This document shows positions 44,170-60,439 of a stretch of 64,000 bases of DNA, in pieces. Position 1 is the first letter of the stretch; each line of letters begins with the position of its first letter. The notes beneath the pieces are model-generated. The model was not told the DNA's origin and did not search any database. It was given only the letters and a program-made list of their open reading frames with translations. This DNA is from Streptomyces niveus (GTDB lineage Bacteria; Actinomycetota; Actinomycetes; Streptomycetales; Streptomycetaceae). The translations under genes and the position numbers were made by a program. The stretch spans positions 4,092,001-4,156,000 of the forward strand of contig NZ_CP018047.1 of the NCBI RefSeq assembly GCF_002009175.1. Direction: 5' to 3'.

Positions 44170-44652
44170 AACCTCCGCCTGTCGGCCGCCCCGGCGGTTA
44201 CGCAGACCCGGCGGGAACACAAGTCCACCAAGTCCAGGGCCGGACGCCGCACGGTCGGTCTGCCCGACCCGCTGATCAAGCTCCTTCGGCACCACCAGGA
44301 CGTACAGGCGGGGGAGCGGCTGTCAGCTGGAGCCGACTGGGAGGAAAAGGGGTACGTCTTTGCCTCGCCCCTCGGCGGTCCGCTGAGCCCGAACACCGAC
44401 TATCACGTGTTGAAGCGGCTGTTGCGGGACGCGGGTGTACGGGACGGCCGGCTGCATGATGCTCGCCACACTGCCGCGACCGTCCTGCTTCTCCTGGGAG
44501 TCCCTGACGTCGTGGTCGACTCGATCATGGGCTGGGAGCCTGGGGGAGCGGCCCGGATGCGCGCCCGGTACATGCACATCACCGGGCCCATGCTCCGGAA
44601 GGTCGCGCAGCAGGTCGGCGACATGCTCTGGGAGCCGCCGCAGGGCGAATGA
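44170..44652 (+). pseudogene. Tyrosine-recombinase (phage-type integrase), C-terminal fragment
   Basis: Open from just after a TAG at 44167-44169; recognisable integrase sequence starts about 44212 (KSTKSRAGRRTVGLP). It contains Arg in the R-x-G-R-R region, the HDARHTAAT box (H-x-x-R), GVPDVVVDSIMGW, and the tyrosine nucleophile in RARYMHIT. The N-terminal arm-binding and core-binding domains are absent and no proper start is present, so it cannot be a working integrase. It ends 23 bp before att copy 2, matching the usual int-att arrangement. Confidence 0.85.
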
Positions 44653-44675: not shown

Positions 44676-44790
44676 CGAAGGCCCGCCATCGCTAGCGCTG
44701 GCGGGCCTTCGACTATTGCCCGGTGAGAGCAATGGCGGAGGATACGAGATTCGAACTCGTGAGGGGTTGCCCCCAACACGCTTTCCAACT
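44676..44790 (-). repeat. Attachment-site copy 2: 3' half of tRNA-Ser(GGA) plus terminator
   Basis: Same 115-bp unit as 42731-42845. The three differences all fall in the loop and upper stem of the terminator hairpin; the tRNA-derived 91 bp are identical. Sequence similarity stops on both copies at the same base, just 5' of the anticodon loop, which marks one end of the crossover region. Confidence 0.9.
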
Positions 44791-44918: not shown

Positions 44919-45098
44919 CTACCGGGCCCTGCGGATCTTGCGCTTCTTCGCCTTAGCTTCCGTCTCCTTGCGCTGCACAACCCCGTAGGCCGACCAAGGG
45001 CCTTGGTGCTTTGCGCAACGTGAGGTGCCGACCACGGCCAGGTTCCGGCAGGCTCTACCAGCTTTGGTACGTGCACCACACCTGGACTGAGATGCCAT
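44919..45098 (-). CDS. Small Cys/His zinc-binding-type protein, paralogue of 37043-37186
   Basis: 59 residues from ATG 45098, with AAGGGG 6-7 nt upstream. It shares C-G-x-x-T-x-x-G-x-x-C, then A-x-x-G-x-S-R-C-x-x-H-x-G-P-W, with the protein at 37043-37186, and ends in a long basic tail (KAKKRKIRRAR). Zinc binding and nucleic-acid contact are inferred. First gene after att copy 2. Confidence 0.65.
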   Translation of the reverse strand: MASQSRCGARTKAGRACRNLAVVGTSRCAKHQGPWSAYGVVQRKETEAKAKKRKIRRAR

Positions 45099-45176
45099 TC
45101 CATACCCCTTACGAAGAGGCCTGGTAACTCCAGACTCCAGGCAGGCTTCCACGCGGTACGGCCAGAGGGGAGGTGT

Positions 45177-45281
45177 ATGGATGACGCACGGGAGCACGCT
45201 CAGGAACCCCCTGGAGTATTCGGCACAGATCGTGGAGCGTCCTGGCCACCAGTCCTCGTCAGCAGTAGCACCGCTGAGTAG
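45177..45281 (+). CDS. Possible 34-residue peptide
   Basis: ATG 45177 follows GGGGAGG at 5-nt spacing and reads MDDAREHAQEPPG... to a TAG. No family. The SD is strong but the peptide is low in structure. The rest of the 464-bp gap 45099-45562, between the zinc-type gene and the TIR gene, holds no credible gene and must carry the TIR promoter. Confidence 0.25.
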   Translation: MDDAREHAQEPPGVFGTDRGASWPPVLVSSSTAE

Positions 45282-45562
45282 GCTGAACTGTCCCGTACCC
45301 AAGGAGGTCGGCTCCTCGGTCCACAGTGCCTGACAGAGGCGGGCCCCGGTTCGCTGGCTGGCGCAGCCGACCATGAGACCAGGCGTTAGACGTTGCGCGC
45401 GGGTGAACGGCAGACCTGGCAAGGTCTGCGAGCGCTTACGTCCCTGCAGGCTGCTGCGAGTGCATCTGTGTCGACGAGGCATTGGATTCCCCCGATCACC
45501 GGACAAGTGACACAGATCCTCGACATCATGAGCTCTTGAGTCCACACACGCCCAAGAAGGGA

Positions 45563-46087
45563 ATGTCCGTGCGTGTTTTTATTAGTTGGTCAGGGAAAGC
45601 GTCGAAATTGTGCGCAGAGACGCTTCGCGATTGGCTTCCGTACATGAATCCTGCGATCAACCCCTTTGTTTCGTCGCAAGACATTTCAAAGGGAGAGAGG
45701 GGGTTGGGAAAAATCGCCAGTGAACTGCAGGGGTCAGTCTATGGGATTGTATGTGTGACTCGAGAAAATCAGGCGGCCCCGTGGATCAATTTTGAATCTG
45801 GAGCCCTGTCTAGGGAGCTGGATGAAAGCATGCTCGCACCTTTCCTGTTGGATCTCTCTGTGAGAGATCTCGCAGGGCCAATTGCGCAGTTCCAGGCCAC
45901 AGAAAGTGAATCTAAAGAGGATGTCTGGGCGCTAGTGAAAGGCATAAATGAGAAATGTAGTGCAGGTATTGAGGTTGAACGGCTAGAGGTCCTATTCAAT
46001 AGATTCTGGAACGACCTTGATAGAGGTCTCCGTGAAGTTAGATCCATGCAGCCGGAAGATGTCCCCCCCCGGTCGGGATACTCCTGA
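45563..46087 (+). CDS. TIR-domain protein (Thoeris ThsB-like), frame broken near its C-terminus
   Basis: ATG 45563, with AAGAAGGGA upstream. Residues 1-~150 are a TIR domain: VFISWSGKASKLCAETLRDW, then VSSQDISKGERG, IVCVTRENQ and WINFESGAL, with E78 as candidate catalytic Glu of the NAD-cleaving enzymes. TIR enzymes of Thoeris systems turn NAD into an ADP-ribose signal upon phage infection. The frame meets a run of eight C (46063-46070), after which it soon ends (174 aa); the natural continuation lies one base over, up to 46493. The next gene encodes a two-TM macro-domain protein. The base composition is clearly more AT-rich than the chromosomal flank. Confidence 0.85.
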   Translation: MSVRVFISWSGKASKLCAETLRDWLPYMNPAINPFVSSQDISKGERGLGKIASELQGSVYGIVCVTRENQAAPWINFESGALSRELDESMLAPFLLDLSVRDLAGPIAQFQATESESKEDVWALVKGINEKCSAGIEVERLEVLFNRFWNDLDRGLREVRSMQPEDVPPRSGYS

Positions 46088-46493
46088 TATTCTCAATGAA
46101 CTGGTTTCCCTGGTGCGGGAACAAACGATGCGAATCCACAAGCTGGAGGAGAGGTTCGAATCCGTAAGGGGGTCCAATACGTCGAACAGCTATACAATTA
46201 ATGACCCTCGGCAAGTCACGATTGGGGTAGACGAGCTACCTCGCGCTCGCGAGGAGCGCGCATTGAGTCTCGATCGCTTTGTTGAGCATGTTGTAAGTTT
46301 GCTCGGCCAATCCAACCTCTTGGGACTGCAAAAAAGAGGGGAGCGTCTGCACTTCATTGTAAGCAAGGACGGGCTAGACCAAGCTCGACTAGGGGTTCAT
46401 AAGCTGCAGTCCCTTGCCGGAGAATACTTGGTTGAGGCCGTCATTGAGGGGAAAGGGAAGGGGGCAGAGAATCGTGTCCACCTCACTCCCTGA
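46071..46493 (+). pseudogene. Out-of-frame C-terminal extension of the TIR protein
   Basis: In the frame +1 to the TIR gene, 140 codons continue without a good start codon or RBS. The sequence begins GRDTPDILNELVSLVREQ, the short coiled-coil segment that commonly follows this type of TIR domain, then a Ser/Asn linker and a ~90-residue alpha/beta module (RALSLDRFVEHVVSLLG ... LQSLAGEYLVEAVIEGKG). Removing one C from the run at 46063-46070 would give a continuous protein of about 309 residues. Internal ATG 46128 could start it separately, but has no SD. Confidence 0.75.
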
Positions 46494-47373
46494 TCGAGCT
46501 AGGCGCTCGAATCGTGCATGGCGGCTTGCGGCAACACTTCGCACAAGGCACGGGCTCCAGTTGGCTCTCGTGAACGCATCCGTTGCGTTTGCTGCAGCGT
46601 CAGGGCTGGTTCAGCTAATTCTGACGGTCACTTCAGTGGAGGTCTTGCAAGGTTGGGAGGCGTTAGTTGTTCTCTTCGGCGCATCCGCTCTCTGGGGAGT
46701 GGTGAAATCCATACCTAAGGAGTCGGTTAGTCGTGAATTCCGCAATCCTCCTTTCAAGGTCACAGTGAAGACAGGAGATCTCTTTGCAGAGCAAACTCAG
46801 CTCGTGATTGGGTTTACTGACACCTTCGATACGGCTGTAGGGAACCGGGAACCGATATTCGAGCAGAGTGTTCAAGCCCAGTTCGCGGCACGGCTATATG
46901 CGGGGGATATTTCACTTCTGGATGACGAACTAAACGTGGCCCTGCAAGATAAGTCCATCGAATCCATTGAATCGCCAGTAGTGAAACCAAAGGGAAAGCT
47001 GGGTCGTTACCCCATTGGGACAACTGTGGTAATTGGGGGTGAGCGAAGCTGCTACTGTGTCGCCTACTCGAAAATGGGCAATGATCTGGTCGCCCGTTCT
47101 AGTATCGATTTCTTGTGGAGCGGCTTGCATCAGTTATGGGGTGAGATATCGATCAAGGGGCATCGAATGCCCGTTGCGATGCCGGTCGTTGGTTCAGGTC
47201 TTGCCAAATTGGATAATGTGGACTATCAAGGGCTGGTGAAATTCGTAATCACGTCCTTCGTTTCCCATTCGCGTGATGCGGTTGTTGCGGGCGAATTGAT
47301 AATCGTTGTTCATCCACAGGATTCTGAAAAAGTTGATATGAATGAAGTGCAGGCATTTCTTAATTCCCTATAG
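46474..47373 (+). CDS. Two-TM macro-domain protein (type II Thoeris effector-like)
   Basis: 299 residues from GTG 46474, with GGAAGGGGG upstream; it overlaps the TIR extension by 20 nt. Two membrane helices at residues ~28-52 and ~60-78, then a cytoplasmic macro-like domain (~88-299): VTVKTGDLFAEQTQLVIGF, DTFDTAVG, FEQSVQAQF, then RYPIGTTVVIGG and MPVVGSGLAKL, the last two forming the usual ADP-ribose phosphate loops. In type II Thoeris the TIR product binds the macro domain and activates the membrane part, causing growth arrest or death of infected cells. Coupled translation with the TIR frame supports a two-component system. Confidence 0.82.
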   Translation: MSTSLPDRARRSNRAWRLAATLRTRHGLQLALVNASVAFAAASGLVQLILTVTSVEVLQGWEALVVLFGASALWGVVKSIPKESVSREFRNPPFKVTVKTGDLFAEQTQLVIGFTDTFDTAVGNREPIFEQSVQAQFAARLYAGDISLLDDELNVALQDKSIESIESPVVKPKGKLGRYPIGTTVVIGGERSCYCVAYSKMGNDLVARSSIDFLWSGLHQLWGEISIKGHRMPVAMPVVGSGLAKLDNVDYQGLVKFVITSFVSHSRDAVVAGELIIVVHPQDSEKVDMNEVQAFLNSL

Positions 47374-47934: not shown

Positions 47935-49137
47935 TCATGTCGCTGTGGCCGGCCGGGCTTCGTAGAAGGTGCCGTCGCGGAGCATGGCGAAGAGGATGTC
48001 GGCCCGGCGTCGGGCGAGGCAGAGCCGGGCCTGGGTGTGGTGCTTGCCCTGGCTGATTTTCTTGTCGTAGTAGGCCCGGGAGGCCGGGTCGCCGAGGGCA
48101 GCGAACGCGGAGAGGAAGAAGGCTCGTTTGAGCTGTTTGTTCCCCCGCTGGGAGGGCTGTTCGCCTCGGATCGACGAGCCCGAGTTGCGGGTCGCCGGGG
48201 CGAGCCCGGCGTAGGCGGCGAGGTGGGCGGCGGAAGGGAAACTGCTGCCGTCGCCGACCTCGATGAGGATCCTTGCTCCGGTCCTGATACCGACTCCCGG
48301 CATCGAGATCAGGACCTTCGAAAGAGGGTGGGCCTCCAGCAGTTCCTCGATCCGTCCGGCCAGGAGCTTTCGCTGGTCGAGGACGGCGGTGAGCGAGGCT
48401 GCCAGGCTCGGGACGATCAGCGCGGCCGCTTCGGTGCCGGGAACCACCACGATCTGCTCGTCCAGCGCGGTGAATATGTCCTCGGCCAGCCGTTCGGCCA
48501 TGCGCGGGGCCTTCGGCGGCAGCAGCGTGACCAGTCGGCGTCGGCCGGCCTTGCGGATCTGGGCCGGTGACCCGAACCGTTCCAGCAGGGCCAGGACGGC
48601 CGGGTGCTGCAACCGCGGGCCCAGGACCCGTTCCAGGGACGGGTGGATCTGGGTCAGCAGGCCGTGGAGTCGGTTCGCGACCCGGGTGGCCTCGCCAGTC
48701 AGGTCGTCGTCGAATCCGACGATCATCTCCAGCTCGGCGATCGTCTCGTCTTCGAGGTCGACCGAGCGCAAGGTGTGTGGCATCGCGCGGGCGGCGTCGG
48801 CGATGATGAACGCGTCCTTCGCGTCGGTCTTGGCCTCGCCGGGGTAGAGGTCGGCGATCCGCCGCATCGTCGGGCCCGGCAGGTAGGCGACCGGGCAGCC
48901 CATGTCCCGGGCCACCGCCAGCGGCAGGGCGCCGATCGAGGCCGGCTGGTCGACCACCACCAGCACGGTCCCGTGCTTGGCCTGGAGTTTCGCGAACAAC
49001 TCCCGGAGCTTGGGTTCGGTGTTGGGCAGTCGCTTGTCGAACGCCTTCTTCCCGGCCGGTGTGACGGCGGTGGCGTGGTGTTCACCCTTGCCGACGTCCA
49101 GGCCGAGATAGACGTCGATGTCACCGGTGTCGATCAC
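47935..49137 (-). CDS. IS110-family transposase
   Basis: 400 residues from GTG 49137. N-terminal RuvC-like DEDD domain: YLGLDVGKGEHHATAV (first Asp), VVVDQPASIGA, and TDAKDAFIIADAARAMP, the family's DAKDA signature. C-terminal Tnp_20 part with SMPGVGIRTGARILIEVGD and the Ser-containing YAGLAPATRNSGSSIRG that carries the serine nucleophile. Complete length, so potentially active. IS110 elements lack terminal inverted repeats, so ends cannot be set from this copy alone. Confidence 0.95.
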   Translation of the reverse strand: MIDTGDIDVYLGLDVGKGEHHATAVTPAGKKAFDKRLPNTEPKLRELFAKLQAKHGTVLVVVDQPASIGALPLAVARDMGCPVAYLPGPTMRRIADLYPGEAKTDAKDAFIIADAARAMPHTLRSVDLEDETIAELEMIVGFDDDLTGEATRVANRLHGLLTQIHPSLERVLGPRLQHPAVLALLERFGSPAQIRKAGRRRLVTLLPPKAPRMAERLAEDIFTALDEQIVVVPGTEAAALIVPSLAASLTAVLDQRKLLAGRIEELLEAHPLSKVLISMPGVGIRTGARILIEVGDGSSFPSAAHLAAYAGLAPATRNSGSSIRGEQPSQRGNKQLKRAFFLSAFAALGDPASRAYYDKKISQGKHHTQARLCLARRRADILFAMLRDGTFYEARPATAT

Positions 49138-50278: not shown

Positions 50279-52375
50279 TTGAACTGGCAGGACGATGCAG
50301 CGCCGTCGATGATTGGCCTCTTCAAAGTGGAACGCCGGATCGGGGCGGGCGGGATGGGCGTGGTCTATCTGGCCACATCGCCCTCCGGCCGCGAGGTGGC
50401 AGTCAAAGTCATCCGCAAGGAGCACGCCGACGACCCAGAATTCCGCGCCAGGTTCCGCCGAGAAGTTTCGGCGGCGCGTCAAGTGAGCGGAGCATTCACC
50501 GCACCTGTCCTTGACGCGGACCCCGACGCGAAGTCACCGTGGATGGCCACTCTGTACATCCCCGCCCCCACGCTGTCGGAACGAATTCACACTGGCGAGC
50601 TACTCACCGAAGCCGACGCCCGAACCCTCGGCTGCGGCCTCGCAGAGGCGCTTCGTGACATCCACCGTGCCGGACTCGTCCACCGAGACCTCAAGCCCAG
50701 CAACGTCCTCTTGACTGACGACGGACCCCGTGTCATTGATTTCGGGATCGCGCGCGTCACGGACGGGGATCTGCTAACCCACACTGGCAAGGTTATAGGG
50801 ACCCCCCCATTCATGGCCCCCGAGCAGATGCGCTCGGCACGTGATATCGGGCCGGCCGCCGATGTTTTCGCCTTTGGCTGTGTCCTCACTTACGCTGCCG
50901 CTGGCCACGGCCCTTTCGACGCAAGCACACCGTACGCCGTCGCCTACAAGGTTGTTCACGAGGCGCCCGACCTTGATGGCGTACCTGACGAACTACGTTC
51001 CATTATCGAAGGATGCCTACGCAAGGCGCCTGAAGACCGTCCGACCCCAGATGAACTACTCACCCTGCTTATTTCGGGTGAACCGTTATGGCGACCCCAA
51101 CGGAATATCAGGACTCGAATACCTGCGAAAATAGTACGCCACATCTCCATAGGAATAGCCATTCTCGCCGTTAGTGCCTCGGTGTTTATTTTGCGACCGA
51201 ATGGCACATCCAATGATTCTCCAAAAACGAAACAATCGACGCTTCCAAGCGCAGCCCCAGCATCGCCAATCGGTCCACAAATTGAACCGGCCGCCGAAAA
51301 TCGCCCCGACGGCTGGGCGCTATGGGAGAAATCACTGAGGAAGAATTCACAGAGCGTCGCATACGGCTACGTGCCCACGTGTACAGCGTTGAACTCAAGT
51401 CTGATCTGTTCGGCGGAAGGGATCATCGCAGCCCGAATCGATCCCGAAGATGGTGACATCATCTGGAGCAAATCCACAACAGAGGATCTCCGTGGAGGCG
51501 AGGTTATAGGGTCCTCAGATGGAGTCGTTCTCGTCATGACTGGGGACCAAGGGGAACTTCTGGCACTCGACATAAAAACGGGAGGTCAGCTCTGGTCCAC
51601 ACAGATAACTGGGGGCCTTTCGGATGTCACGGTGCGGGGATCCACTGTTTACATATTCTTCTTTGACGCAGAAGGAAGCCGCATTGAAGCGCGTGATGTA
51701 CGCACTGGGAAGTTACGCCGCCCCCCTCTGCGGCTTGACACGGACCGCGACTACAGTCTGTTAGTGGGACACGGTGGAGCCCTATACATTTTTGAGTATA
51801 TTGTTAGCGATTCATCCCCCAACTCCGTCGACTCCCTCGACCCCAACACCCTGAAGAAACAGAAGACCTACACCCTCTCCGAGAAGATAGGGGAACCAAT
51901 CGCGGCTGACCGTGACGGGGTGATATTCCTATCCGACTCAAAAACAATCACCCGTCTCAGCGTAGCCACCGGGCAGGAACGGCGCGTCTCATTGCAACAT
52001 CCAATCACGGGTCAACCGGTACTCAACGACGCCACGCTTATCATGAGCCGACCCGACGGAATGACAGCCGCCTATAACACAAAAACAGGCAAACGACTCT
52101 GGGTCACGAGAACTAATGTCGAGTCACCGGGGAAACCCGTCATCGCCGATGATCTCCTCTACACACTCGCTGCGGACGGGCGCATCACATGCCTAGAAAT
52201 CAGCAATGGGACCGAACTCTGGCGTAGCGCTGCACGTCGTAACCCCGACGTCCCCATCCAAGGGGTAGGGACGTCTAATTCCAATAAACCCGCCATATAC
52301 AACGGTGTCGCATACGCTGGTTCCAGCACGGGGTCAATCTTCGCGATCTCCCCACCCAACCGAGTTCACCCATGA
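50279..52375 (+). CDS. Membrane Ser/Thr protein kinase with C-terminal PQQ-like beta-propeller
   Basis: 698 residues from TTG 50279, with GGGAGGG upstream; ATG 50309 is an alternative. Hanks-type kinase domain (12-270): IGAGGMGVVYLA, K43 in VAVK, catalytic HRDLKPSN (D137, N142), DFG at 154-156, APE at 180-182. One TM helix at ~289-305, then an extracytoplasmic region with PQQ/WD-like repeats (GDIIWSKST, GELLALDIKTGGQLWS, TKTGKRLWVT, ISNGTELWRS). It senses an unknown ligand outside and signals by phosphorylation. The 3' part is markedly AT-richer than the kinase part, suggesting domain swapping or transfer. Confidence 0.93.
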   Translation: MNWQDDAAPSMIGLFKVERRIGAGGMGVVYLATSPSGREVAVKVIRKEHADDPEFRARFRREVSAARQVSGAFTAPVLDADPDAKSPWMATLYIPAPTLSERIHTGELLTEADARTLGCGLAEALRDIHRAGLVHRDLKPSNVLLTDDGPRVIDFGIARVTDGDLLTHTGKVIGTPPFMAPEQMRSARDIGPAADVFAFGCVLTYAAAGHGPFDASTPYAVAYKVVHEAPDLDGVPDELRSIIEGCLRKAPEDRPTPDELLTLLISGEPLWRPQRNIRTRIPAKIVRHISIGIAILAVSASVFILRPNGTSNDSPKTKQSTLPSAAPASPIGPQIEPAAENRPDGWALWEKSLRKNSQSVAYGYVPTCTALNSSLICSAEGIIAARIDPEDGDIIWSKSTTEDLRGGEVIGSSDGVVLVMTGDQGELLALDIKTGGQLWSTQITGGLSDVTVRGSTVYIFFFDAEGSRIEARDVRTGKLRRPPLRLDTDRDYSLLVGHGGALYIFEYIVSDSSPNSVDSLDPNTLKKQKTYTLSEKIGEPIAADRDGVIFLSDSKTITRLSVATGQERRVSLQHPITGQPVLNDATLIMSRPDGMTAAYNTKTGKRLWVTRTNVESPGKPVIADDLLYTLAADGRITCLEISNGTELWRSAARRNPDVPIQGVGTSNSNKPAIYNGVAYAGSSTGSIFAISPPNRVHP

Positions 52376-52863: not shown

Positions 52864-52938
52864 CCTGTTCCTCCTTGCCTGCCCGGTGCCCAGGATCAGT
52901 CGCGGGGAGACGTGTCGGCAACTGAAATGATCTGTCGT

Positions 52939-53706
52939 ATGGCTGGTGTGATCACGGCGTCGGAGTCCTCGTGGATAGCCCCGTTCACCGGACTAAGCCC
53001 CCGCCCTTTTGGGAAGTTGGTGGCGGTTCTGCGGCGCGAGGGTGCAGACGCGGTCCGCAGGGGCCGGCCGTGGAGCCTGCCGCTTGAGGACCGGGTCCTG
53101 TTGGTCGCGACGTACTGGCGCACGAACCTGACCATGCGCCAACTGGCCCCGCTGTTCGGGGTTTCCAAGTCGGCTGCGGACCGGATCATCGATCACCTCG
53201 GGCCGATGCTCGCCCTGCGGCCCCGCAAGCGGTTCGCGAAGGACACGGTGCTGATCGTGGACGGCACTCTCGTACCCACCCGCGATCACACGGTCGCCGA
53301 GCAGTCGAAGAACTACAGGTACTCCACCAACCACCAGGTCGTCATCGACGCCGATACCCGCCTCGTCGTGGTGGTCGGGCGGCCCCTGCCCGGCAACCGC
53401 AACGACTGCAAGGCGTGGGAGGAGTCCGGTGCGAAGGCCGCCGTCGGCGCAACCACGACCATCGCCGACGGGGGCTACCCGGGCACCGGGCTCGTGATGC
53501 CCCACCGGCGCCGCAAGGGCGAGGAGCTGCCCGGCTGGAAGCAGGCCCACAACAAGTCCCACAAACAGGTCCGTGCCCGCGTCGAGCACGTCTTCGCCCG
53601 CATGAAGACCTGGAAGATTCTCCGCGACTGCCGCCTCAAAGGCGACGGCGTTCACCACGCCATGCTCGGTATCGCCCGGATGCACAACCTCGCCCTCGCC
53701 GGATAG
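52939..53706 (+). CDS. IS5-family DDE transposase
   Basis: 255 residues from ATG 52939. N-terminal helix-turn-helix (TMRQLAPLFGVSKSAADRII) and a DDE_4-type catalytic domain: VLIVDGTLVP (D1), IADGGYPGTG (D2), and RARVEHVFARMKTWKIL (E). The conserved K-N-Y-R-Y-S-T-N-H and PGNRND spacers are as in the group. Complete, so likely functional. Confidence 0.93.
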   Translation: MAGVITASESSWIAPFTGLSPRPFGKLVAVLRREGADAVRRGRPWSLPLEDRVLLVATYWRTNLTMRQLAPLFGVSKSAADRIIDHLGPMLALRPRKRFAKDTVLIVDGTLVPTRDHTVAEQSKNYRYSTNHQVVIDADTRLVVVVGRPLPGNRNDCKAWEESGAKAAVGATTTIADGGYPGTGLVMPHRRRKGEELPGWKQAHNKSHKQVRARVEHVFARMKTWKILRDCRLKGDGVHHAMLGIARMHNLALAG

Positions 53707-57859: not shown

Positions 57860-60439
57860 ATGGATCTGTGGCGGTGGGCATTCTCGTCGTACCGGGGACG
57901 GGCGACGGATGCGGGGTTTGCGGACGTGGTGGGTGGGCATGCGGGGCGGGGCCGGTGGCAGTGGGTGCTTGGCCGACTGCTGTGGGCGCTGGCAGGGGCC
58001 GCGGTTGCGGGCGGGATCGCGTGGGCGGTCGCGCGGGTCGGGCTGGAGACGGCGGACCAGCTCTCCAGTGTGATCGGCGGGACCGTCGGCCTGATCGGTC
58101 TCGCCGTCTCGCTGGTCGCCCTGCGCTCTCCCGTTCCGGCCACGCCCCCCGTCACAGGCGGTGGGGCGGGCGGGCGTTGGGTGCGGGCGGCTGCCGCCCA
58201 CGCCTCCTACCATGCTCCCGCCATCCAGGCGCCAGTCCGTGGCCGTGACAGTCAGCTCGCCGACCTCCAGCGCTTGGCGGCCGACCGGGAGGGCGGGCTC
58301 GTTGTGGTCTGCGGGACGGGTGGGCTGGGCAAGACCACCCTCGCCGCCCAGGCCGCGCAACAGGCCGAGACGGGAGGGCGGGCGGTGTTCTGGGTGCGGT
58401 GGCAGGACGACGCCGCCCGTCTCGCCCACGACCTCACCCGCATCGCCCAGGTACTGGGACTCCCCGAAACCAGGCTCCACGACGCCCAGAACGGCCGGGC
58501 CGCCCTGGTCGACGTGGTGTGGGAACAGCTGGCGGCGGTGCGGGGGTGGGTGATCGTGATCGACAACGTCGACACCCCCCGCAACCTCGGCCCCGGCAGC
58601 GAACCACCGGGCTCCTACCGTGGCTGGGTACGACCCGACGGCGCCGGACTCCTCCTGGTCACCAGCCGCGACACCGCGCCCACCACCTGGGGACCGCGCG
58701 CCCGCCTCGTTCCCCTCGAACCCCTGGCCCCCGGCCCCTCGGGAGCGGTGCTGCGCGATGCCGCACCCGCCGCCGGTACGGCGGAGGAGGCCGCCGCGCT
58801 CGGAGAACGGCTCGGTGGGCTCCCCCTCGCCCTGGACACCGCAGGCCGCTACCTCGCCAACCCCACCAGCCGCTACCGCACCTTCACCGCCTACCAACAC
58901 GCCCTCGCCACCGAGTTCGGTGACCTCGTCGGTGCCGAACACCCGCAGGCCGCCGACCCGGAGGTCGCCCGCAGCGTGGTGCGGCACACCTTCGATCTCT
59001 CCCTCACTCAACTCCACACCGACGGCTACACCCTCGCCCGCCCCGCCCTGTTCCTCCTCGCCCTCCTCGCCCCCGCACCCGTCCCCCGCGCGTTCCTCAC
59101 CCCCGCCCTCCTCACCGACGCCACCGGACAGACCGCGACGGCGGCCGAACTCGACGCCGCCCTCGCCGCCCTCCACCAGTACGGCCTGATCAACACCCCC
59201 GCCACGCCGCCGACAGGCAGCGGCGGCGGGCAAGCGCTCACGGTCGGACAGGTCGTGCTGCACCCCCTGGTCCACGACGTCATCGCACTCACCGCACCCC
59301 CCGGCACCGACCACGCCACCTGTCACACCGCCCTCGACACCCACCTCACCCAAACCGTTCACGACACCACCAGCGCGGGCCGCGCCGGCTGGCTCACCGC
59401 ACGCCTCCTCGCTCCACACCTCCCACCCCTCCTCCACCGCACACCCCACGCCGACTTCACCACCACCCGTAACCTGCTCACCGACCTCGCCTACACCCTC
59501 GATGACGCGGGTGCCGCAGGCGAACAACACCTCCTACTTCAGTGCCTCCTCGACGCCGAAACCCTCCACCAGGGCCCGGGCCACCCCGACACCCTCGGCA
59601 GCCGCAACAACCTCGGCCTCGCGCTCAATGCGCTTGGGCGTAACCAGGAGTCTGCCGACCTCCACCAGCAGACCCTCACCGACTCCGAACGCGTTCTAGG
59701 CCCGGACCACCCCGACACATTGTCCAGCCGCAGCAACCTCGGCCTCGCGCTCAATGCGCTTGGGCGTCATCAGGAGTCTGCCGACCTTCACCGGCAGACC
59801 CTCACCGACCGCGAACGCCTCCTGGGCCCGGACCACCCCGACACCCTCGGCAGCCGCAACAACCTCGGCATCGCCCTGTACGAGCTGGGGCGTTATCAGG
59901 AGTCTGCCGACCTCCAGCGGCAGACCCTCACCGATTACGAACGTGTCCTGGGCCCGGACCATCCCCGCACGCTCTCCAGCTGCAGCAACCTCGCCAGCGC
60001 CCTCTATGCGCTTGGGCATCATCAGGAGTCTGCCGACCTCCACCAGCAGACCCTCACCGACTCCGAACGCGTTCTAGGCCCGGACCACCCCGACACATTG
60101 TCCAGCCGCAGCAACCTCGGCCTCGCGCTCAATGCGCTTGGGCGTCATCAGGAGTCTGCCGACCTCCACCAGCAGAACCTCACCGACTCCGAACGCCTCC
60201 TGGGCCCGGACCACCCCGACACCCTCAAGGGCCGCAACAACCTCGGCATCGCCCTGTACAAGCTGGGGCGTTATCAGGAGTCCGCCGACCTCCAGCAGCA
60301 GAACCTCACGGACCGCGAACGTGTCCTGGGCCCGGACCACCCTCACACCCTCGTCAGCCGCAACAACCTCGCAGCAGCACGAGCTGCGGTAGCGCGTACC
60401 CAACGACGGCGATTGCCGTGGCAGCGCTCCCGACGCTGA
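57860..60439 (+). CDS. Transmembrane NB-ARC/TPR STAND protein
   Basis: 859 residues from ATG 57860. Two N-terminal membrane helices (~36-60, ~68-88), a linker, then an NB-ARC NTPase: GRDSQLADLQRL, P-loop GTGGLGKTT (152-160), Walker B VIVIDNVD (D235), LVTSRD and GGLPLALDTAG. After a winged-helix-like region come six complete 42-residue TPR-like repeats and one partial (~578-850) with S-R-N-N-L-G-x-A-L...G-R-x-Q-E-S-A-D-L. STAND proteins sense a ligand with the repeat part and act through the N-terminal domain, here membrane-located. Many bacterial homologues are phage-defence receptors. GntR gene just upstream. Confidence 0.92.
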   Translation: MDLWRWAFSSYRGRATDAGFADVVGGHAGRGRWQWVLGRLLWALAGAAVAGGIAWAVARVGLETADQLSSVIGGTVGLIGLAVSLVALRSPVPATPPVTGGGAGGRWVRAAAAHASYHAPAIQAPVRGRDSQLADLQRLAADREGGLVVVCGTGGLGKTTLAAQAAQQAETGGRAVFWVRWQDDAARLAHDLTRIAQVLGLPETRLHDAQNGRAALVDVVWEQLAAVRGWVIVIDNVDTPRNLGPGSEPPGSYRGWVRPDGAGLLLVTSRDTAPTTWGPRARLVPLEPLAPGPSGAVLRDAAPAAGTAEEAAALGERLGGLPLALDTAGRYLANPTSRYRTFTAYQHALATEFGDLVGAEHPQAADPEVARSVVRHTFDLSLTQLHTDGYTLARPALFLLALLAPAPVPRAFLTPALLTDATGQTATAAELDAALAALHQYGLINTPATPPTGSGGGQALTVGQVVLHPLVHDVIALTAPPGTDHATCHTALDTHLTQTVHDTTSAGRAGWLTARLLAPHLPPLLHRTPHADFTTTRNLLTDLAYTLDDAGAAGEQHLLLQCLLDAETLHQGPGHPDTLGSRNNLGLALNALGRNQESADLHQQTLTDSERVLGPDHPDTLSSRSNLGLALNALGRHQESADLHRQTLTDRERLLGPDHPDTLGSRNNLGIALYELGRYQESADLQRQTLTDYERVLGPDHPRTLSSCSNLASALYALGHHQESADLHQQTLTDSERVLGPDHPDTLSSRSNLGLALNALGRHQESADLHQQNLTDSERLLGPDHPDTLKGRNNLGIALYKLGRYQESADLQQQNLTDRERVLGPDHPHTLVSRNNLAAARAAVARTQRRRLPWQRSRR
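59591..60346 (+). repeat. Six tandem 126-bp repeats coding for TPR units
   Basis: Exact 126-bp periodicity, starting at ACC 59591. Units 1/2 junction and units 4/5 junction share a stretch of about 145 bp that appears identical (starting 59651 and 60029, 378 bp apart), including the rare codons TTG and CTA, so a three-unit block has been duplicated recently. Confidence 0.9.

Follow-up and report, generated by a model that had tools for sequence, protein, structure and literature searches.

Does a pair of neighbouring genes in Streptomyces niveus, one for a TIR-domain protein and one for a transmembrane (TM)-macro protein, form a diverged type II Thoeris phage-defence system? The pair lies at positions 45563 to 47373 of a stretch of 64,000 nucleotides (contig NZ_CP018047.1, 4,092,001 to 4,156,000), which we call the window and for which an earlier, sequence-only reading had proposed such a system. 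Our analysis suggests that the pair is quite probably an abortive-infection system resembling type II Thoeris, that it is cargo of a tRNA-Ser island, and that its TIR gene is split at a run of eight cytosines (C8). This answer draws directly on the gene layout, the protein families, the pairing in relatives and the frame split, and on a modelled macro fold. Because the TIR comes from a different family and its gene is divided between two frames, we class the pair as a variant and not as a standard member: the proposed kinship held for the ThsA-type macro protein and its pairing with a TIR gene, and was not supported for the TIR itself as a member of the ThsB family.

The TM-macro effector and its TIR neighbour

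The TIR and TM-macro genes are neighbours on one strand, and the features of the locus are as follows.

45563/45569-46087, + strand: TIR open reading frame (ORF), the N-terminal part of the TIR gene
46059-46493, + strand: ORF2, the C-terminal module of the TIR protein in a separate frame
46063-46070, + strand: C8 run, within the TIR/ORF2 overlap, where the frames diverge
46474-47373, + strand: TM-macro effector gene (ThsA_Macro), 299 aa, GTG start
46546-46707, + strand: two predicted membrane helices, residues 25-52 and 61-78
46714-47370, + strand: macro domain, residues 81-299 of the TM-macro protein
D102, D119, Q134, S199, S241, A244 and H280: predicted ligand-site positions in the macro domain

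The 299-aa frame at 46474-47373 carries the two membrane helices (best 19-residue hydropathy values 1.88 and 1.69) and the macro domain that had been described from the sequence, together with both of the named loops, GSGLAKL and PIGTTVVIGG. A comparison of this protein with ThsA profiles, which had been proposed as a check, returned Pfam ThsA_Macro at E=8.8e-52 (175.9 bits, cut-off 25) and the PADLOC ThsA models at 1.5e-79 for the best. The fear that the 46474 protein might lack a macro fold was not borne out, a ThsA-type macro fold being predicted by the structural model. No solved chain was matched at E≤0.01 by the profile of A1, a first scan of genome contigs with the macro protein found nothing, and the TIR, ORF2 and macro frames had no NCBIfam match at E≤1.

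The window shares the TM-macro ThsA effector with the type II Thoeris systems of E. coli CFT073 and Pseudomonas corrugata described in PMC11204291, and by structural alignment its macro domain is 24-25% identical to their ThsA proteins. It differs from them in that its single TIR gene is from a different family and has a sensor-like C-terminal module. Equivalents of the solved-ThsA pocket residues D83, D100, S175, S217, G218 and H259 are kept, whereas N114 is replaced by Q, T220 by A, L113 by V and I219 by L; the equivalent of K262 is D, as in 9uuz. The Asn-to-Gln and Thr-to-Ala changes are clade-wide. The identity to the macro domain in the ThsA macro domain-signal complex (PDB 8r66) is 23%, and the signal read in the window may differ. 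The claim of a histidine-ADP-ribose (His-ADPR) signal rests on the known Thoeris system of which it is a feature, according to PMC12847820. The clade-wide pocket changes make that signal less certain here. His-ADPR has reportedly also been the subject of work by Sabonis et al. in 2025.

As had been noticed, the frame from 45563/45569 encodes a TIR domain with the W-x-N-F-E-x-G-A motif, here APWINFESGA, and the domain itself is complete. We prefer GTG 45569 over ATG 45563 as the putative start because it fits the M[RK][VI]FISWSG start of the relatives and has AAGAAGGGA upstream. Pfam TIR_2 matched slightly below its cut-off of 28 (E=7.9e-6, 26.8 bits), a cut-off passed by all four relatives scanned. 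The TIR domain belongs to the PADLOC TIR-TM family (E=1.3e-58), which also matches the relatives P0002 (Streptomyces sp. MNU77) and P0010 (S. rubiginosohelvolus), and in the window frame, P0002, P0010 and P0014 the match ends at 164-233 of 293 model positions and leaves the C-terminal domain uncovered. Among the PHROGs, phrog_13899 was matched by P0002 and P0008.

Partners and spread of the two families

The two families are found together in relatives, and a complete lack of pairing with TIR genes, which had been the other possible objection, is not the picture that emerged. Excluding the window's own, we examined 13 TIR loci (L032-L036 and L038-L045, of which L035 and L038 are one contig), and 8 have a TM-macro gene in the stretch examined. 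Starting from ThsA_Macro instead (30 non-own loci, L002-L031), a TIR relative was found in 5 and not seen in the other 25, in the short stretch examined; among the five, L029 is weak and L027 is the S. humi contig again. The gap between the TIR and macro genes is 30 nt in L034 and L035, 11 in L057, 5 in L058 and 12 in L091; none is quoted for L093, where the printed value of -514 arises because the longest frame begins far upstream. The motif scan missed macro genes that tblastn found (L010, L018, L043), so that its empty rows are weak.

A three-gene version of the locus was found in Streptomyces sp. AC550_RSS872 (L032), which has the same kind of TIR (306 aa) and a TM-macro gene and differs from the window in that a canonical ThsB_TIR gene (E=3.1e-11) lies within the 619 nt between them. 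The ThsB_TIR family (PF08937) had no match at E≤0.001 across the window's whole genome. Among ten genomes with a TIR gene of this family beside a macro gene, of which G327, G627, G277, L032 and L034 have the full-length TIR kind, four had any ThsB_TIR match, and only L032 had it at the locus. Because ThsB_TIR had no match in the window genome and was found at the locus only in L032, it is likely the paired TIR that makes the signal where there are two genes. A ThsB_TIR partner is common but not universal in type II Thoeris, for which Shi et al. 2024 (PMC11204291) distinguish 11 ThsB subfamilies. Across 15 TIR-macro pairs the distances of the two proteins were correlated (r=0.74, or 0.81 without L058; 0 of 20000 permutations each).

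Other arrangements were also seen. The S. ipomoeae TIR protein (L033, 5001-5567) has a low-complexity tail in place of the C-terminal module, and no macro gene was found there by tblastn or motif scan over 10.5 kb. TIR relatives in L055, L056 and L058 adjoin a second protein of 411-435 aa, which is TIR_2-positive in L055 and L058; L055 and L056 have a KGGTGRT ATPase-like frame.

Within the genus, 10 of the 392 genomes surveyed have a TIR relative (E≤1e-20); within the family, 40 of 394 have ThsA_Macro; and the phylum survey with A3, in which at most 6 candidates were scored per genome, gave 3 of 396. The first and last counts include the window's own genome. This patchy spread fits a mobile defence. 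The pair might instead be a regulatory or metabolic ADP-ribose pair, which we consider very unlikely: the assignment to defence is made here from sequence, and ThsA_Macro is also present in proteins of other kinds, such as those with SARP-type domains (PF03704, PF00486), whereas the combination of TM-macro and TIR has been published as an architecture of phage defence (PMC11204291) and the few positive genomes of the genus, the island site and the hypervariable module all fit defence.

The TIR family was also found in 17 viral contigs (L065-L081). A phage origin of the TM-macro gene was considered and set aside, the pattern scan of viral contigs giving 32 stretches with none confirmed. Among plasmids, 11 records carry the TIR, none reaching 80% of the query. 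Two ThsA_Macro matches were present in 23 of the 40 positive genomes; in G316 they lie about 1.1 kb apart on opposite strands (C1 975087-975647 (-) and 976724-977281 (+)), and no TIR relative was seen near them in the stretch examined (L008).

The split at the C8 run and the surrounding island

The sequence-only reading had the TIR gene overlapping the macro gene and ending in a module of about 90 residues. We found instead that the TIR frame stops at 46087, 17 nt past the C8 run, and that it is ORF2 that overlaps the start of the macro gene, by 20 nt. ORF2 starts in the same overlap with the TIR frame, at its own ATG (46059), 26 nt ahead of the TIR stop codon. The module is part of the TIR protein in the closest relatives and lies in a separate frame in the window. 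In the protein search with the TIR frame, which reached proteins of up to about 305 aa, 115 of the 119 non-own proteins among the best 120 of 291 are at least 240 aa long, and none of these 115 has a membrane-like stretch beyond residue 150. P0002 and P0010, the closest relatives among the matches listed, run unbroken from TIR into a stretch that shares 61% and 65% identity with ORF2, and intact TIR-module copies occur in other strains; Streptomyces sp. NBC_00076 has an intact pair (P0014/P0124). The modules of P0002 and P0010 are 65% identical to each other, and ORF2 is no further from either. ORF2 is stop-free over 144 codons, as were 94 of 20000 Markov resamples. Because ORF2 is no more diverged and such a stop-free stretch is rare by chance, the break is probably recent or a sequence artefact.

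ORF2 had no family at E≤1 in Pfam, PADLOC or NCBIfam, nor at E≤0.01 in PHROGs. In the predicted model of a relative the module appears as a coil helix followed by a small alpha/beta domain; a second look at the fold of this C-terminal domain was filled by the TIR domain. The module is hypervariable among relatives, which makes its proposed role as an infection sensor more likely; one intact protein with both TIR and module is not supported by the window sequence. ORF2 as a stand-alone partner gene was rejected, since relatives carry the module fused to TIR; none of 47 candidates scored was a stand-alone relative, in a search whose range was limited to proteins of about 79-252 aa.

What broke the frame bears on whether the system works. 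Some sequencing methods are prone to mistakes in long G/C runs, and an error of sequencing or assembly in the C run, leaving an intact TIR-sensor gene and a working system, is a possible though somewhat doubtful cause, one that concerns the origin of the split only. It would account for the conservation of the rest of the gene and for an ORF2 that is stop-free and no farther from P0002 and P0010 than these two are from one another; yet the genome is one contig with a marker completeness of 99.99, and another run, of seven cytosines at 50802, sits within an open kinase frame of 698 codons. A second possibility, which we regard as improbable, is that the C8 run is a switch, with slippage in replication, transcription or translation setting the amount of full-length TIR-sensor protein. 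The window has two C8 runs, one of which does mark the precise junction of the two domains; the frames stay open on either side of it, and ORF2 begins with an ATG of its own. But chance would suffice (shuffles average 10 C8 matches in the window, against 2 observed), and no such run stands at this place in seven relatives. The survey of those seven covered relatives other than the two closest, whose DNA was not found; their longest C run was 2-4, and a conserved phase-variable tract was not supported. Because the sensor module is out of frame with TIR, the system is likely off or weak in this strain, or works through slippage at the C run alone.

A third account, decay, brings in the surroundings of the pair, whose features are these.

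44734-44786, - strand: 3' end of tRNA-Ser(GGA), likely attachment-site copy at the near end of the pair's segment
42789-42841, - strand: second, exact copy of the tRNA-Ser 3' end
44407-44652, + strand: integrase C-terminal remnant (Phage_integrase E=1.9e-5, 24.9 bits, below the cut-off of 27.1)
71585-71672, window-equivalent: intact tRNA-Ser(GGA), about 7.6 kb past the window end
70244-71503, window-equivalent: integrase frame beside the intact tRNA-Ser(GGA)

These features agree with the tRNA-linked element of the sequence-only reading, and its view of the DNA as AT-rich and acquired is supported by a G+C of 0.55 at 45001-47000 against 0.67-0.75 upstream of 44 kb. The two exact copies are 53 nt long (0 of 100 shuffles); a fourth tRNA-Ser match, 83% identical, lies elsewhere in the genome, and ARAGORN found no tRNA within the window. 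Direct repeats of a tRNA 3' end and an integrase next to the intact tRNA are traits of an actinomycete integrative and conjugative element (AICE), and a DnaB-N/DUF3987 frame is present in the island. We call the island AICE-like at most, because the 10 frames scanned, a subset of the island frames, gave no FtsK/TraB transfer gene at E≤0.001. The larger segment spans 44.7-71.6 kb, with the pair at its far end, and the segment between the two tRNA copies is likely a small remnant element. The island matches the picture of accretion and decay in PMC9513070, where many cargo genes of Streptomyces AICEs are apparently pseudogenised. That picture, with the integrase remnant and transposases nearby, would favour a TIR gene that is a fresh pseudogene in decaying island cargo. 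Against it, no second lesion was seen, and the macro frame, like the two TIR frames, is otherwise uninterrupted; we hold this account to be conceivable rather than probable.

The same island carries other genes of note downstream. A Ser/Thr kinase with a PQQ-type propeller (50279-52375), matched by PADLOC PD-T4-6 kinase models probably via the shared kinase fold, is flanked by an IS110-type transposase (47935-49137) and a DDE transposase (52912-53706), and a STAND-like AAA/NB-ARC and TPR protein of 859 aa lies at 57860-60439.

How the pair would act

Several points weigh against a type II Thoeris-like system in this strain. The window has the TIR and its module in two frames and no intact TIR gene, and the absence of the C run in the seven relatives gives no sign of a conserved switch. 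No PADLOC ThsB model matched the TIR at E≤1, it did not align with E. coli ThsB2 (EcThsB2; E=4.7), and ThsB matches were weak and found in two of five relatives scanned (0.037, 0.0088). The genome holds a second TIR_2 domain (G000:C1:2471813-2472175, - strand) within an open frame of 1011 codons, which may be an alternative source of signal. The TIR family also occurs without a macro gene, since five of the 13 loci (L033, L039, L042, L044, L045) had none in the stretch examined. Of the 15 pairs behind the distance correlation, 8 were matched because their contigs are of equal length and not from directly observed gene adjacency, and shared strain ancestry can add to the correlation. In the macro pocket, besides the changes at N114 and T220, even kept contacts vary within the clade (G242 in 22, H280 in 29 and S199 in 43 of 62 rows). 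The activity of the pair is itself a prediction from sequence and models.

Taken together, we consider that the pair likely works like type II Thoeris, and the following steps describe its proposed working form, as in intact relatives. The C-terminal module of the TIR protein, given its hypervariability, would sense a phage component. The TIR domains, judging from the conserved NADase motif and the fold, would then assemble and convert NAD+ to an ADP-ribose-type signal, which may bind the TM-macro protein encoded next door in its macro pocket, as the fold and pocket of that protein suggest. By analogy with what published work proposes for TM-macro ThsA, the effector would cluster and damage the membrane, so that the infected cell dies before phage release.

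This variant of TIR-module and TM-macro was not met in our searches of the literature on type II Thoeris, Streptomyces Thoeris, His-ADPR or ThsA/ThsB macro domains, nor in that on Thoeris phase variation, AICE defence or ThsB sensing; 'Thoeris II' with Actinobacteria gave no literature match, and the word Thoeris is absent from the main text of PMC10482375, on Actinobacteria, in the portion available. We suggest tentatively, as a rather unlikely extension, that in an actinobacterial TM-macro branch the canonical ThsB has been replaced by a TIR with a swappable, fast-evolving sensor, and that the pocket reads an ADP-ribose signal other than His-ADPR.

The locus carries a caution: where the name Thoeris rests on the effector, the partner gene of a particular strain may be split and possibly inactive. 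TIR signalling systems vary in how they sense phage and in the nucleotide used. With a conserved enzyme domain joined to a fast-changing C-terminal domain, this family offers natural relatives in which sensing specificity can be compared, and the two clade-wide pocket changes are a direct handle on an alternative signal.
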